Of a DNA stretch of 64,000 bases, positions 33,986 through 39,463 are shown piece by piece. The DNA is from Oscillospiraceae bacterium (GTDB taxonomy: Bacteria > Bacillota > Clostridia > Oscillospirales > Ruminococcaceae), in assembly GCA_031282245.1 (NCBI GenBank), contig JAITEB010000041.1:1-64000 (forward strand). The letters run 5' to 3'. The notes under the pieces were generated by a model that was not told the origin of the DNA, searched no databases, and worked only from the letters and a program-made list of their open reading frames with translations. Made by a program: the position numbers and the translations under genes. The stretch's first letter is position 1, and each line of letters opens with the position of its first letter.

Positions 33986-34020
33986 TGGCGGGGGCGGCTT
34001 TCGGCTGTCCCCGCTTTTTT
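33986..34020 (+). terminator. Terminator of asd-dapA
   Basis: GCGGGG (33988-33993) pairs with CCCCGC (34009-34014), with an inner GGC / GCC-like helix, followed by TTTTTT. Confidence 0.85.
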
Positions 34021-34081
34021 AAACATATGTTTGACATGCCCTGATTAAAGTGCTATAATATAAATTAAACTGTTTGAACAG
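34021..34081 (+). promoter_or_regulatory. lexA promoter with two flanking palindromes (candidate LexA operators)
   Basis: TTGACA (34031-34036), 17 bp, TATAAT (34054-34059) is a near-perfect promoter. AAACATATGTTT (34021-34032) overlaps the -35 and resembles the Gram-positive SOS box with GAAC/GTTC changed to AAAC/GTTT. CTGTTTGAACAG (34070-34081) is a perfect 5-2-5 palindrome about 11 bp after the -10, and a related reverse copy GTTCAAAACAG follows near 34110-34120. Autoregulation by the LexA homologue is inferred from position. Confidence 0.55.
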
Positions 34082-34142: not shown

Positions 34143-34730
34143 ATGAAAGTGCTAAGCCCAAAAGCGCAGGCGACATATGAATTTATTCTGGAACGCTCGG
34201 TTGACGGCATTCCGCCAAGCGTGAGAGAAATATGCGCGCAGCTCGGCTTTAAGTCGACTTCGACGACGCACAAAATCCTGCTGGAGCTTGAGGAATCCGG
34301 CTATATATCGCGGGAATCCGGTTTCAACAGGAACATACGCGTCAACACGGAAAAAGCGCTGCAAGTCCCGCTTGTCAAGGCTGTTCCCGGCGTTAAGCCC
34401 GTCACCGCGCCGGAAAACATCGAAAGCTATATACCTTTCCGCGCAAGGGGATACAACCAGGGGGAGCTGTTCGCTCTGGCGGTAAAGGGTTCCGGAATGA
34501 GCGGCGCGGGGATTCTGGACGGCGACATAGTTATCGCCAAAAAATCTATAGGGGCGAAATCAGGCGAGCTGGTGGCCGCCGTTCTTAACGGGGAAGCAAC
34601 TGTAAGGCGTTTTCTGGAGGATGGGGACAAGCTTGTCTTAAAGGCCGAAGATCCCGGCACAGAGCCTTATATCAGCGATGAGGTGGAAATTCTTGGGCGT
34701 GTTGTGGCTTGCCTGCGATTTTATGAATGA
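34143..34730 (+). CDS. lexA: LexA-family repressor predicted to be non-cleavable
   Basis: The protein has 195 residues with the LexA architecture. The N-terminal winged HTH (1-65) is intact: GIPPSVREICAQLGFKSTST with THKILLELEESGYI. The C-terminal S24 domain is aligned without gaps to known LexA (PLV..V....P..A, then GILDGD). There the scissile Ala-Gly position reads V81-PGVK, the catalytic Ser position is Gly118 (KGSGMSGAGILDGD versus KGDSM) and the catalytic Lys is Arg155 (ATVRRF versus ATVKRF). Both dyad residues and the cleavage site are therefore changed, so RecA-stimulated self-cleavage should not occur. It may be a constitutive or differently induced repressor, or a paralogue of a functional LexA elsewhere. 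A Shine-Dalgarno AAAGGAG is 17 nt upstream of the ATG (34143), fairly distant. Confidence 0.9.
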   Translation: MKVLSPKAQATYEFILERSVDGIPPSVREICAQLGFKSTSTTHKILLELEESGYISRESGFNRNIRVNTEKALQVPLVKAVPGVKPVTAPENIESYIPFRARGYNQGELFALAVKGSGMSGAGILDGDIVIAKKSIGAKSGELVAAVLNGEATVRRFLEDGDKLVLKAEDPGTEPYISDEVEILGRVVACLRFYE

Positions 34731-34781: not shown

Positions 34782-35870
34782 GTGGAGTTTTTGAAAGAAA
34801 ACGGCGAGCGGGAATACGAAGATTTTATATGGAAGCACCCGAACGGGCATTTCATGCAGTCGCTGGAATGGGCAAAAGTTAAACCCGGCTGGAGCAGCGA
34901 CGCTATAATCTCAAGGGGAAAAGACGGCGAAATAAAAGGTTCCCTATTCGTGCTCAAAAAGAAAACGCCCGTTTTTAATATTCACTATCTCTATGCGCCC
35001 AGAGGTCCTGTCTGCGGCTGTTCTGACAAAGAAACTTTCGCGGATCTTCTGGAGGGCGTTAAAGCGCTTGCCAAAAAATGCGGCGGCTATAAATTCACCT
35101 GCGACCCCATTGTACCCGCTTCGGATTCTAATTTTCTCGCCCTGATGAAAGAGTTTGGCTTCAGCCTTAATAAAGGCCGGCTTGAGATAGGATATACTAT
35201 ACAGCCGCGTTTTCACTACAGACTGGATATAAACGGCAGAAGCGCCGATGAGCTTTTCAAAAGCTTTAACGAAAGCACCCGGCGCAATATCCGAAAGGCC
35301 ATAAAATTCGGCGTTGAGGTGAAAGTCTGCGGACTTGAAATGGTGGACGAGTTCGCCCGGATGATGGCCGTAACCGGCCAGCGCGACGGGTTTATGACCC
35401 GCCCGGCGAATTATTTTAAAAACATGTTTGAGGTGATGGGTGAAAATTTCAGGCTGTATATAGCTTTTTTCGGGGGCAGGCCCATATCCGGCGCGGTCTG
35501 CGCGCATTTCGGGCATGTGACTTATTATATTTACGGCGCTTCGGACAACGTGTACAGGAACGTCATGCCCAATTACCTGATGCAGTGGGAAATGATAAAG
35601 TGGGCTGCGGAAAACGGCTCGGATATATATGATTTTATGGGCATTTCCGGAGATCTGGAAAACAAGAACGGCCCCGCCTATGGTCTTTACAGGTTCAAAA
35701 GAGGCTTCAACGGCTATGTCGCCGAGTTTCCCGGGGAGTTCAGCATCGTCTACAACAAATTTATAGACAGGCTGATAAACACGGCGACTGATATTCAGGT
35801 CAGCATAATCCGCAGGAAAAAGGGGCTTTATAAAAAAAATGCGCAGCATGTCTCTGCTGAAACGGATTGA
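34782..35870 (+). CDS. FemAB/FemX-family peptidoglycan aminoacyltransferase
   Basis: The product has 362 residues from GTG 34782 (GGGGGAAGG upstream). It has the two tandem GNAT-like halves of the family: N-terminal FMQSLEWAKVKPGW and YLYAPRGPVCG, then C-terminal STRRNIRKAIKFGVEVK, FGGRPISGAVCAHFG and YGLYRFKRGFNG. FemX-type enzymes add the first residue of the interpeptide bridge to lipid II using aminoacyl-tRNA. The classical coiled-coil insertion of staphylococcal FemA/B is absent. The bridge amino acid cannot be predicted. The next gene begins 32 bp before this one stops. Confidence 0.9.
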   Translation: MEFLKENGEREYEDFIWKHPNGHFMQSLEWAKVKPGWSSDAIISRGKDGEIKGSLFVLKKKTPVFNIHYLYAPRGPVCGCSDKETFADLLEGVKALAKKCGGYKFTCDPIVPASDSNFLALMKEFGFSLNKGRLEIGYTIQPRFHYRLDINGRSADELFKSFNESTRRNIRKAIKFGVEVKVCGLEMVDEFARMMAVTGQRDGFMTRPANYFKNMFEVMGENFRLYIAFFGGRPISGAVCAHFGHVTYYIYGASDNVYRNVMPNYLMQWEMIKWAAENGSDIYDFMGISGDLENKNGPAYGLYRFKRGFNGYVAEFPGEFSIVYNKFIDRLINTATDIQVSIIRRKKGLYKKNAQHVSAETD

Positions 35871-37170
35871 GGAAATAATCTCTGGGGGCGCTTCGCGATT
35901 TTATGTCCCCGGGCACAAGGGAAGGTTGGGCGCTTTTGGCGGGGATTTCTCAAAGTATGATATAACGGAAATTCCCGGCGCGGACAGCCTTTACTCGCCC
36001 TCCGGCGCAATCGCCGAGCTTGAGGGGCTTGTCTCACAGGCATATAAAAGCGGCGCAAGCCTGATCAGCTGCGGAGGCTCAACGCTTGCGGTTCAGGCTA
36101 TGCTCGCCCATTACGCAAAGCCGGGCAGTGTTGTTATTATGGCGCGCAACGCTCATATTTCCGCTGTAAACGCAGCGGCGCTGCTTGGTTTTGAGCCTTT
36201 CTGGGTTTATCCGGACGGGGACGCCGGGGAAGCCCTTCCCGGGAGAATAAGCCCCCCGGCTATAGAAAAGGCGCTTGAAAAAAATCCGGGCGCGGCGGCC
36301 GTTTATATCACCTCGCCGGACTATTTCGGCGTACTGTCCGACGTGAAGGCCATAGCGGGGATTTGCGGAAAACACGGCGCGCCGCTTTTGATTGACAATG
36401 CCCACGGAGCGCACCTGTCCTTTTCCGGCCAGGCGCATCCAATACGGGAGGGCGCAGACATGTGCGCCGATTCCGCGCACAAAACGCTGCCGGCTTTAAC
36501 CGGCGCGGCTTTCCTGCACATACGCAACGGGGATTTAAAAAGCGCCATGAAGTCCCGTATGGCGCTTTTCGGCTCCACAAGCCCAAGTTATCTTGTGATG
36601 GGTTCTATTGATTATTGCATGGCCTGGCTTGCGGAAAACGGCGGGGACGATTATATCAAGCTTGCGGGCAGGGTTGAGCGCCTTGCTTTGATGGCGAAAG
36701 AAAAAGGCTTTGCGCTTCCGGAAGGCCTGCGCGACAAAACGCGCCTGACGCTCGGCGCCTGCGCGCTTGGGTATAGCGCTCCGGAACTTGCCGGATGGCT
36801 CCGCGAAAACAAAATTGAGCCGGAATATGTCGGGAACTCTTATCTTGTGCTTGTGCCAGGCCCGTTTAACGCGGAGCGGGACTTTGCCCGGCTCGAAAAC
36901 GCGATTGACAAGATAAAGCCCCGGAAACCCGCGCCGTTCTTGCGGGAGATGGAATTTTACTCTCCCAAAAGAATCTTGTCTATAAGAGAAGCGTATTTCA
37001 GCGAAATTGAGGAAATTCCTGTAGAAAAAGCTGCCGGGCGCATTCTTGCGGAGAACGTAAGCGCCTGTCCGCCGGGCGTGCCTGTTGCGCTGGGCGGCGA
37101 TAAGATTGACGGAATTTTAGAAAAAATGTTGATTTCTTATGGCGTTTTGCAAGTAAAAGTGGTAAAATAA
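35839..37170 (+). CDS. Orn/Lys/Arg decarboxylase-family PLP enzyme (YaaO-like)
   Basis: The product has 443 residues from ATG 35839 (MRSMSLLKRI); ATG 35848 is an alternative. Family motifs: FYVPGHKGRLG, GGSTLAVQAMLAHY, the PLP-lysine in DSAHKTLPALTGAAF and LLIDNAHGAHL. The short C-terminal domain and lack of a wing domain match the YaaO/SpeA-like subgroup that precedes tmk-yaaQ-yaaR-holB in many Firmicutes. The substrate (arginine or lysine) is not decidable. It overlaps femX by 32 bp and precedes darA by 48 bp. tmk and yaaR are missing from the expected order. Confidence 0.9.
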   Translation: MRSMSLLKRIEEIISGGASRFYVPGHKGRLGAFGGDFSKYDITEIPGADSLYSPSGAIAELEGLVSQAYKSGASLISCGGSTLAVQAMLAHYAKPGSVVIMARNAHISAVNAAALLGFEPFWVYPDGDAGEALPGRISPPAIEKALEKNPGAAAVYITSPDYFGVLSDVKAIAGICGKHGAPLLIDNAHGAHLSFSGQAHPIREGADMCADSAHKTLPALTGAAFLHIRNGDLKSAMKSRMALFGSTSPSYLVMGSIDYCMAWLAENGGDDYIKLAGRVERLALMAKEKGFALPEGLRDKTRLTLGACALGYSAPELAGWLRENKIEPEYVGNSYLVLVPGPFNAERDFARLENAIDKIKPRKPAPFLREMEFYSPKRILSIREAYFSEIEEIPVEKAAGRILAENVSACPPGVPVALGGDKIDGILEKMLISYGVLQVKVVK

Positions 37171-37218
37171 AATTGCGTTTTGTCTTGAAATAAATTACCC
37201 AGGGAGGTTTCTGTCTTT

Positions 37219-37542
37219 ATGAAACTGATATTTGCAATAGTAAACAACGACGACAGTAATTTTGTTCAGTCCGCGCTGACGCAGGAAGGTTTTTCCGCGA
37301 CAAAGCTCTCCACAACCGGGGGCTTTCTCAAATCCGGAAATACTACTTTTATAATCGGCGTTGACGACGACAAAGTTGACGATATAATTTCTATTATCGC
37401 AAAGCATTCCAAAAAGCGCCAGCACATTGTACCCACAGCCGCTACATACGGCACGGGAATGTACAGTTCCATCCCGATAGAAGTCACCGTCGGCGGCGCC
37501 ACCGTTTTTGTGACGGATGTGACGCGCTTTGAAAAGCTGTAA
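37219..37542 (+). CDS. darA: DarA/PstA cyclic-di-AMP receptor (PII-like, YaaQ)
   Basis: The 107-residue protein starts MKLIFAIVNNDD and contains SALTQEGFSATKLSTTGGFL, GNTTFIIGVDDDKVDDII and a C-terminal EVTVGGATVFVTDV. This is the YaaQ/DarA family, a trimeric PII-like protein that binds cyclic di-AMP; its downstream partners are largely unknown. GGGAGG is 9 nt before the ATG. The next gene (holB) starts 8 bp after its stop, the conserved Firmicutes order. Confidence 0.96.
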   Translation: MKLIFAIVNNDDSNFVQSALTQEGFSATKLSTTGGFLKSGNTTFIIGVDDDKVDDIISIIAKHSKKRQHIVPTAATYGTGMYSSIPIEVTVGGATVFVTDVTRFEKL

Positions 37543-37550
37543 AGGCTTTT

Positions 37551-38516
37551 ATGTTTGAGCAGTATTTCGCCGGGAACCCGGAAGCAAAATCCGAGCTTTT
37601 GGAAAAAAGCTCCGCCCGTCTTCCCCATGCCGTACTGATTTACGGCGAAACAGGGCTTGGCAAAAAAACTTTTGCCGGTCTTGTCGCCTGCCGCTATATT
37701 ATGGGGGAAGAAAAATTCTTCTCCGGAGGCAATCCCTTTGATACGCGGGAAAGCCGGCTTGTTTTAAATAAGCTTCACCCTGATCTGTATATCCAGGACG
37801 GCGGCGAAAGCATAAAGGTTGACGACGTCCGAAAAATCGCGTCGGAGCTTTATATAAGGCCCAATCAGGCGGCGCGGAAAGTTTATGTTCTGGCGGACTG
37901 CCAGAACATGACTGTTCAGGCGCAGAACGCCCTGTTAAAGAGCCTGGAGGAGCCTCCGCAGACAGCGGCCTTTATCCTCACGGCCGAAAGCAAAAGCCGG
38001 CTTCTGGAGACAATAATTTCTCGCGTACGTTCTGTGCGTCTTTTCCCGGTCAAGCCGGATGAAGGTCTCGGCTATATTAAAAAAATCCTTCCGGAAGCAG
38101 ATATTCCGGAAGCCGGGAACTTTTTGAGAACTTTTGGGGGAAATATCGGCAAAACGCTTGCCGCGCTGGACAAAAGCGAAAAAAGTCCGGCGTATCAGAT
38201 TTTCGGCGAGCTTTCCAATGCGATTGAATCCGGGGATATTTACGGGGCGGCGCTTGCTTTGACTAAAGCCTCCGCAAAACGCCCGGTGTTCAAAGAAGTC
38301 TGCGATTTGCTTTCGCGCTTTATGGGGGAGCTTCTTGCGGCGAAGGCCAGGGCGGAAAGCCCGCGCGGAGCGCTTGCGGCAAAGCTTGAATACAGGCGGA
38401 TAGTCAGGATTGTAAGCTTTCTGGACGAAATCCGGCAGCGGGACGTGTATAATCTAAATTTGCCGCTGATGTCGGCGCGGCTTGCGCTTTGCGTCCTGGG
38501 GAACCGGATGTGCTGA
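37551..38516 (+). CDS. holB: DNA polymerase III delta' subunit
   Basis: The subunit has 321 residues. The AAA+ P-loop is YGETGLGKKTFA, and the sensor/SRC region is LADCQNMTVQAQNALLKSLE followed by EPPQTAAFIL and SRVRSVRLFPVK. The zinc-binding cysteines common between Walker A and B in clamp-loader subunits are missing (the segment reads GNPFDTRESRLVLNKLHPDL). The C-terminal collar domain is helical. It is part of the clamp loader that places the beta clamp on DNA. Position between darA and ricT is conserved in Firmicutes. Confidence 0.93.
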   Translation: MFEQYFAGNPEAKSELLEKSSARLPHAVLIYGETGLGKKTFAGLVACRYIMGEEKFFSGGNPFDTRESRLVLNKLHPDLYIQDGGESIKVDDVRKIASELYIRPNQAARKVYVLADCQNMTVQAQNALLKSLEEPPQTAAFILTAESKSRLLETIISRVRSVRLFPVKPDEGLGYIKKILPEADIPEAGNFLRTFGGNIGKTLAALDKSEKSPAYQIFGELSNAIESGDIYGAALALTKASAKRPVFKEVCDLLSRFMGELLAAKARAESPRGALAAKLEYRRIVRIVSFLDEIRQRDVYNLNLPLMSARLALCVLGNRMC

Positions 38517-38596
38517 AAAACGCTTTTATTTTCGCGCCGGCTTTTGGTATTATTTTATAAAAGCAATATTTTTCCCTCAAGCAAAAAGGAGCATAT

Positions 38597-39463
38597 ATGA
38601 TAGAAGTTATTGGCGTAAAATTTAAGCCGGCTGGCAAAATGTATTATTTTGACCCCATCGACAGCGCAATAGAAGCCGGAACAAAAGTGATAGTCGAGAC
38701 GGCCAGGGGCGTGGAGTGCGGAGAAGCGATCATGCCAAACACTATGGTCTCCGAAGAAAGCATTGTGGGCGCTTTAAAACCTATCCTGCGCCTTGCCAGC
38801 GAGTCCGACATGGAAATTTACTATGCCAACCGCGAAAAAGAAAAAGAAGCTCTGGAAATCTGCGCAAAAAAAATAGAAAAACACAAGCTCCTTATGAAGC
38901 TTGTCGACGTCGAATATACGTTCGACGGAAATAAAATCTTGTTTTATTTCACAGCCGACGGGCGGATTGATTTCCGGGAGCTTGTCAAAGACTTGGCTTC
39001 TGTTTTTCGCACGAGGATAGAACTGCGCCAGATCGGAGTGCGGGACGAGGCAAAAATGCTCGGCGGTTTGGGTATATGCGGGCGGCCTTTCTGCTGCTCA
39101 AGTTTTTTGGGGGACTTTCAGCCGGTTTCGATTAAGATGGCAAAAGAACAGGGGCTTTCCCTCAATCCGACAAAAATTTCCGGTTCCTGCGGGCGGCTTA
39201 TGTGCTGCCTCAAATACGAGCAGGACGTCTACGAAGAACTGTTGAAAATAACGCCCAAAGTCGGCGCGCTGGTTCGCTATGGCAAAGAACGCGCAGTAGT
39301 GACCGAAGCGAATATTTTCACGGGAAAGCTTTCCATCCGGCCGGAAAAAGAGCCGGACGCGGCGGTAAAAGCCGTCAACCGCTCGGAAGTGCGGCTTATT
39401 AAAGACGCAAAAATCACGCTCAGCGATTCTGAATTAAAAGAGCTGAAAAATCTGGAGGAATAA
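38597..39463 (+). CDS. ricT: RicT / YaaT PSP1-domain protein
   Basis: The protein has 288 residues with the PSP1 domain: GVKFKPAGKMYYFDP at the start, KLVDVEYTFDGNKILFYFTA, RIDFRELVKDLASVFRTRIE, LRQIGVRDEAK and two cysteine clusters, GICGRPFCCSSFL and GSCGRLMCCLKYE. In Bacillus, RicT forms the Y-complex with RicA and RicF, carries Fe-S clusters and modulates RNase Y-dependent mRNA maturation, sporulation and competence. holB lies upstream, as in Bacillus. The C-terminus is charged and variable. A hairpin follows 35 bp after the stop. Confidence 0.95.
   Translation: MIEVIGVKFKPAGKMYYFDPIDSAIEAGTKVIVETARGVECGEAIMPNTMVSEESIVGALKPILRLASESDMEIYYANREKEKEALEICAKKIEKHKLLMKLVDVEYTFDGNKILFYFTADGRIDFRELVKDLASVFRTRIELRQIGVRDEAKMLGGLGICGRPFCCSSFLGDFQPVSIKMAKEQGLSLNPTKISGSCGRLMCCLKYEQDVYEELLKITPKVGALVRYGKERAVVTEANIFTGKLSIRPEKEPDAAVKAVNRSEVRLIKDAKITLSDSELKELKNLEE

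Follow-up and report, generated by a model that had tools for sequence, protein, structure and literature searches.

Introduction

Autoproteolysis of LexA is among the most conserved of bacterial switches. The closest described departure from it is the LexA of Synechocystis sp. PCC 6803 (sll1626), in which the Ala-Gly bond has become Gly-Gly and the nucleophilic Ser has become Asp; neither lexA nor recA is induced by UV in this organism, its LexA has been reported not to govern SOS genes, and the protein may instead be tuned by phosphorylation (PMC3091678, PMC4759255, PMC7567884). For other natural non-cleavable LexAs, the open-licence literature gave this cyanobacterial case only. Here we describe a LexA homologue encoded in a DNA window of 64,000 nucleotides (the whole stretch that was analysed), in which not only the scissile bond and the nucleophile but also the general base are replaced.

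Replacement of the scissile bond and both catalytic residues

The gene and its product are laid out as follows.

34143..34730, plus strand: lexA ORF, 195 aa, with an ATG start and intact; catalytically dead as judged by sequence
34143..34352, plus strand: winged-HTH DNA-binding domain, residues 1-70; 9 of 9 near-invariant columns kept
34353..34727, plus strand: linker and S24-fold C-terminal domain, residues 71-195; fast-evolving, fold predicted
34389..34394, plus strand: former Ala-Gly scissile bond, now Gly83-Val84 (GGC GTT), by alignment and codons
34494..34496, plus strand: former nucleophile Ser, now Gly118 (GGA), by alignment and codons
34605..34607, plus strand: former general-base Lys, now Arg155 (AGG), by alignment and codons

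The protein matched the TIGR00498 lexA model with 134.7 bits over residues 2-192 (cut-off, 110.95), PF01726 (LexA DNA-binding domain) with 37.8 bits (cut-off, 23.7), and PF00717 (S24 domain) with 71.7 bits, above the Pfam cut-off; the intact winged-HTH and full S24 domain described in the initial annotation of this DNA are thus borne out. In the LexA tree it is the sister of the LexA of a relative designated G033 (support, 0.92; 54% identity). As far as its sequence tells, the window protein is a LexA by descent and by family membership, and lacks what defines an autoproteolytic one.

The window LexA was aligned by MAFFT with E. coli LexA and with 103 LexAs encoded in other genomes of the host's family. 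In this alignment, the columns of E. coli Ala84, Gly85, Ser119, and Lys156 are occupied by Gly83, Val84, Gly118, and Arg155, so that Gly83-Val84 stands in place of an Ala-Gly (or Cys-Gly) bond, and Gly118 and Arg155 in place of the Ser-Lys dyad. A, G, S, and K fill these columns in every one of the 103 family relatives, so that the window LexA is the sole exception, and Ser-Lys is also kept by 78 of the 79 alignable LexA-like loci on viral contigs. The initial annotation had proposed each of these three replacements, and the comparison upholds all of them; the codons it had read at positions 118 and 155 (GGA and AGG) were confirmed, as were GGC and GTT at the bond. Loss of catalytic residues in LexA is highly unusual for the host family. 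With all three elements replaced, the sequence lends good support to the earlier proposal that RecA-stimulated self-cleavage has been lost. In a separate phmmer alignment, the T. maritima LexA (3k2z) has Ala in the column of the catalytic Lys, and a Lys follows at the next position (TLAKF); this may reflect a quirk of register or a shifted base.

Conserved DNA-binding domain and fast-evolving C-terminal domain

Columns conserved in at least 97% of the 103 relatives were taken as near-invariant, giving 36 columns, of which 9 lie in the DNA-binding domain and 27 in the C-terminal domain. The window LexA departs at eight of them (G79K, A83G, G84V, I87V, S118G, K155R, N170D, and I176Y), all within residues 79-176, whereas any relative departs at two at most. 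The division between the domains (0 of 9 versus 8 of 27) is not significant alone (Fisher P, 0.16). When branch lengths were fitted separately for the two domains on one shared topology, the terminal branch for the C-terminal domain (0.91) was the longest of all (rank 1 of 104), whereas that for the DNA-binding domain (0.32) ranked 30th; the C/N branch ratio of 2.89 was the highest of 55 (median, 0.65). Position 42 in the recognition helix is Thr, where the relatives have Val, Ala, or Gly, and the DNA specificity of LexA might therefore have drifted.

The fast-evolving domain is nevertheless predicted to fold as in canonical LexA. An AlphaFold model, computed with an input alignment of viral-contig relatives, had a mean pLDDT of 90, with values of about 95 across most blocks of the C-terminal domain. 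The modelled C-terminal domain (74-195) superposed on that of E. coli LexA (7zra; 75-200) with Z 17.5 and an rmsd of 2.3 over 122 residues, which agrees with the PF00717 match in pointing to an S24 fold, and the modelled N-terminal domain superposed on 1lea with Z 12.7. The high-confidence model, the conserved C-terminal strand, and the codon-position G+C of lexA, which is normal and like that of neighbouring genes, together support the continued selection on the fold that had been suggested at the outset. Presumably, given the predicted fold and the normal codon-position composition, the C-terminal domain has been kept for dimerisation.

An SOS box over the promoter of lexA itself

The surroundings of lexA contain the following elements.

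33987..34015, plus strand: terminator-like hairpin downstream of dapA, which sets lexA apart from the preceding genes
34021..34032, no strand assigned: SOS box AAACATATGTTT, a perfect palindrome overlapping the -35 element, with a motif match as at the lexA genes of relatives
34031..34059, plus strand: promoter TTGACA-17-TATAAT (12/12), with TG before the -10 element
34782..35870, plus strand: FemAB-family gene (femX), 51 bp after lexA
35839..39463, plus strand: Orn/Lys/Arg decarboxylase-like, darA (c-di-AMP receptor), holB, and PSP1/ricT genes, co-directional; a presumptive operon only

The gene thus carries an SOS box over the -35 element of its own promoter. An identical box at the same distance to the -10 element precedes lexA in G033, and family-type boxes with zero mismatches were found before lexA in 34 of 104 genomes, as against 0.2% of shuffled sequences. 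Another inverted repeat, CTGTTTGAACAG, occurs at 34070-34081, just past the -10 element and close to where lexA transcription presumably starts; it was not seen before the relatives' lexA genes that were inspected and could be a second operator or a chance occurrence.

Since no terminator-like site was found in the gap between lexA and the FemAB gene, co-transcription of lexA with femX and the later genes is possible. Conserved lexA-femX synteny was looked for in relatives and was not found in those checked. The decarboxylase-like/darA/holB/ricT cluster is typical of Firmicutes, and lies beside lexA in no relative checked. Farther along the same contig, past the window end (L127:9500-18700, about C19:69500-78700), minus-strand genes resembling those for a DNA methyltransferase, a helicase, and a three-Cys-motif partner protein form a run that, judged by eye, is possibly a restriction or defence island.

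Apparent loss of the SOS regulon from the host genome

In G033, SOS boxes precede dinB, uvrA, the rSAM_link_UDG gene, and lexA (uvrA and dinB having been identified by protein sequence, and dinB also by a PF00817 hit). Genome-wide counts of the degenerate SOS motif were discarded as evidence, with 13 matches versus 8 for the reversed control in the host genome and 10 versus 27 in G033; since such counts are uninformative, promoter position alone was used. The box of lexA is the only one in promoter position found in the host genome with the degenerate motif of the G033 scan, the other matches lying mostly within genes or distant from a start. Both recA and uvrB are present. The initial annotation had proposed a search for SOS boxes upstream of recA and the uvr genes; in the upstream regions of recA and uvrB, the genes to which this search extended, no match to the box motif was found.

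The host genome (1.9 Mb; 95.5% complete) gave no hit to a Y-family polymerase (PF00817) and none to the radical-SAM repair protein TIGR03916, whereas the five close relatives tested each have 1-3 Y-family polymerases. As error-prone polymerases have been described as the conserved core of SOS regulons (PMC8565304), the absence of a Y-family member is consistent with a circuit that has been dismantled. Alone, however, this absence is not a sufficient cause of the loss of cleavage: of the 44 family genomes that are near-complete and encode a full-length LexA, 6 lack PF00817, and the five besides the host (G011, G030, G061, G077, and G089; completeness of 96% or more) keep the canonical LexA residues. 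A PF00717 search of the host genome found no S24 protein beyond LexA itself, and hence neither a second canonical lexA nor a phage-type S24 repressor.

With LexA as the single S24 protein detected in a genome 95.5% complete, the dedicated paralogue that had been offered as one way in which the SOS response might be controlled differently here is unlikely. Such altered control is not the best reading, as neither a second LexA or other S24 protein, nor a Y-family polymerase, nor a box at recA or uvrB was found. With the sole promoter box found being that of lexA, the SOS regulon seems from these sequence comparisons to have been lost rather than re-wired. The only LexA has neither a cut site nor catalytic residues and yet keeps its DNA-binding half and its operator, so that in the host lineage the customary response to DNA damage seems to have been taken apart.

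Absences of this kind were also seen elsewhere in the host family. LexA was undetected in 172 of 397 family genomes (E 1e-20) and a Y-family polymerase in 24 of 100, which makes it look as if components of the SOS system are often lost in the family. In two relatives, the promoters of the putative radical-SAM repair gene carry a perfect box, GAACGTATGTTC (L101:590-2012 in G033, where the gene was recognised by its TIGR03916 match, and L107:652-2012 in G029, where a similar protein was recognised by sequence), which suggests that this gene is a LexA target in the family.

Proposed function and competing explanations

The explanation that we prefer is that the window LexA is a damage-blind negative autoregulator, left over from an SOS circuit that has lost its regulon. 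Loss of self-cleavage would remove the response of LexA to RecA-ssDNA; indeed, a non-cleavable repressor blocks SOS induction (PMC3091678). The protein would still dimerise and bind AAACATATGTTT over its own -35 element, and such binding by a dimer that cannot be cleaved would therefore amount to negative autoregulation blind to damage, LexA repressing its own promoter with no damage-triggered release. Autorepression would fix the level of the lexA transcript, and perhaps that of the genes behind it, and would be what remains of the SOS regulon in the host lineage. DNA binding, dimerisation, and autorepression by this protein are all inferred from the features described above. To this reading, taken jointly with vertical inheritance of LexA in a Clostridia-like bacterium (the host class being deduced from gene content), we assign a probability of roughly 0.52.

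Among the competing explanations, a repurposed regulator is rather unlikely but deserves the most weight: LexA would have acquired a new switch (phosphorylation, a ligand or protein partner, or regulated proteolysis) and would control non-SOS genes, as has been proposed for Synechocystis 6803. The precedent itself (PMC7567884, PMC4759255) speaks for it, as do a DNA-binding domain and a fold that are constrained around fast-changing active-site surroundings, and the position of lexA at the head of the co-directional FemAB/decarboxylase/darA/holB/ricT genes, no terminator-like site having been found ahead of femX. On the other hand, the motif search, whose other matches in the host lie mostly inside genes, turned up no new target promoter; nor did a site for a new switch come to light; and the arrangement of the downstream genes is absent from every relative checked. 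A more specific form is more speculative still: in a Gram-positive lineage that has lost its SOS regulon, LexA would have come to regulate, blind to damage and under a new input in place of RecA, a housekeeping operon composed of its own gene and those for the FemAB cell-wall transferase, the decarboxylase, and the c-di-AMP receptor, together with holB and ricT.

It is also doubtful, at nearly the same level as repurposing in general, that the gene is in decay, with selection relaxed across the C-terminal domain and lexA heading for loss. The branch of this domain is more than four times as long as the DNA-binding branch would predict, and 41% of its sites with 80-97% conservation are changed in the window LexA; decay has to be taken seriously because loss of LexA is ordinary in the family, as the 172 of 397 genomes without a detected copy indicate. 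The reading frame is nevertheless intact, codon-position composition is normal, and the near-invariant sites of the DNA-binding domain are all conserved; most C-terminal blocks are modelled with high confidence, and the strong promoter and perfect box have been kept.

It is very improbable that cleavage persists, whether at a different site or by means of Ser117 or Ser120 paired with a different base. Ser117 is indeed adjacent to Gly118, and the initial annotation had named either serine in cleavage geometry as grounds for abandoning its own reading. These residues, however, align with E. coli Met118 and Lys121, which are non-catalytic positions, and the modelled C-terminal domain keeps the LexA register, so that neither alignment nor model supports such a nucleophile; beyond the nucleophile, the scissile bond, the Lys, and the conserved Gly79 and Asn170 are changed as well. 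Lastly, wrong read data, the other ground named there, or an assembly error are scarcely credible even for one draft genome that is the sole representative of its genus in the comparison, because no Ser codon can give the Gly118 codon with fewer than two base changes, several separate codons are altered, 22 residues of the window LexA are absent from all 103 relatives, and the frame is intact with no frameshift.

Comparison with known LexA systems

In the window LexA, the repressor function is uncoupled from that of the protease: the bond, nucleophile, and base are replaced, and the operator and DNA-binding domain are kept. Its damage-blind autoregulation, if correct, would add a Gram-positive case to that of Synechocystis, as a second instance of what remains after an SOS circuit is dismantled, and it offers a testable order of events, in which the regulon and polymerase were lost, cleavage was lost afterwards, and autorepression was kept.

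Canonical LexAs (G033 and E. coli) have the winged-HTH, the S24 fold, and the TIGR00498 match in common with the window LexA, and that of G033 also has an SOS box over the -35 element of its own promoter. They differ in keeping AG, S, and K, and the G033 regulon takes in dinB, uvrA, and rSAM_link_UDG. Two other systems resemble it in part. IrvR of Streptococcus mutans likewise resembles LexA and stands apart from the RecA paradigm (PMC7101444); however, it keeps the Ser-Lys dyad and autocleaves, whereas the window LexA has neither residue. Francisella, with a diverged LexA-family protein as well as FddR, is a lineage without damage induction of canonical SOS genes (PMC13148647), but FddR is a phage-type S24 repressor with the dyad kept, and the host genome yielded no second S24 protein.

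The closest counterpart is the LexA of Synechocystis 6803, which, like the window LexA, is a natural orthologue without the Ala-Gly bond and the catalytic Ser. Of the dyad, only the Ser has been reported lost there, whereas in the window LexA the Lys is replaced too and the bond is Gly-Val; the host, moreover, is by inference a Clostridia-like heterotroph, and the box in the lexA promoter is of the Gram-positive type. A non-cleavable LexA is thus precedented by Synechocystis 6803, and the additional replacement of the Lys and the Clostridia-like host set the present case apart.
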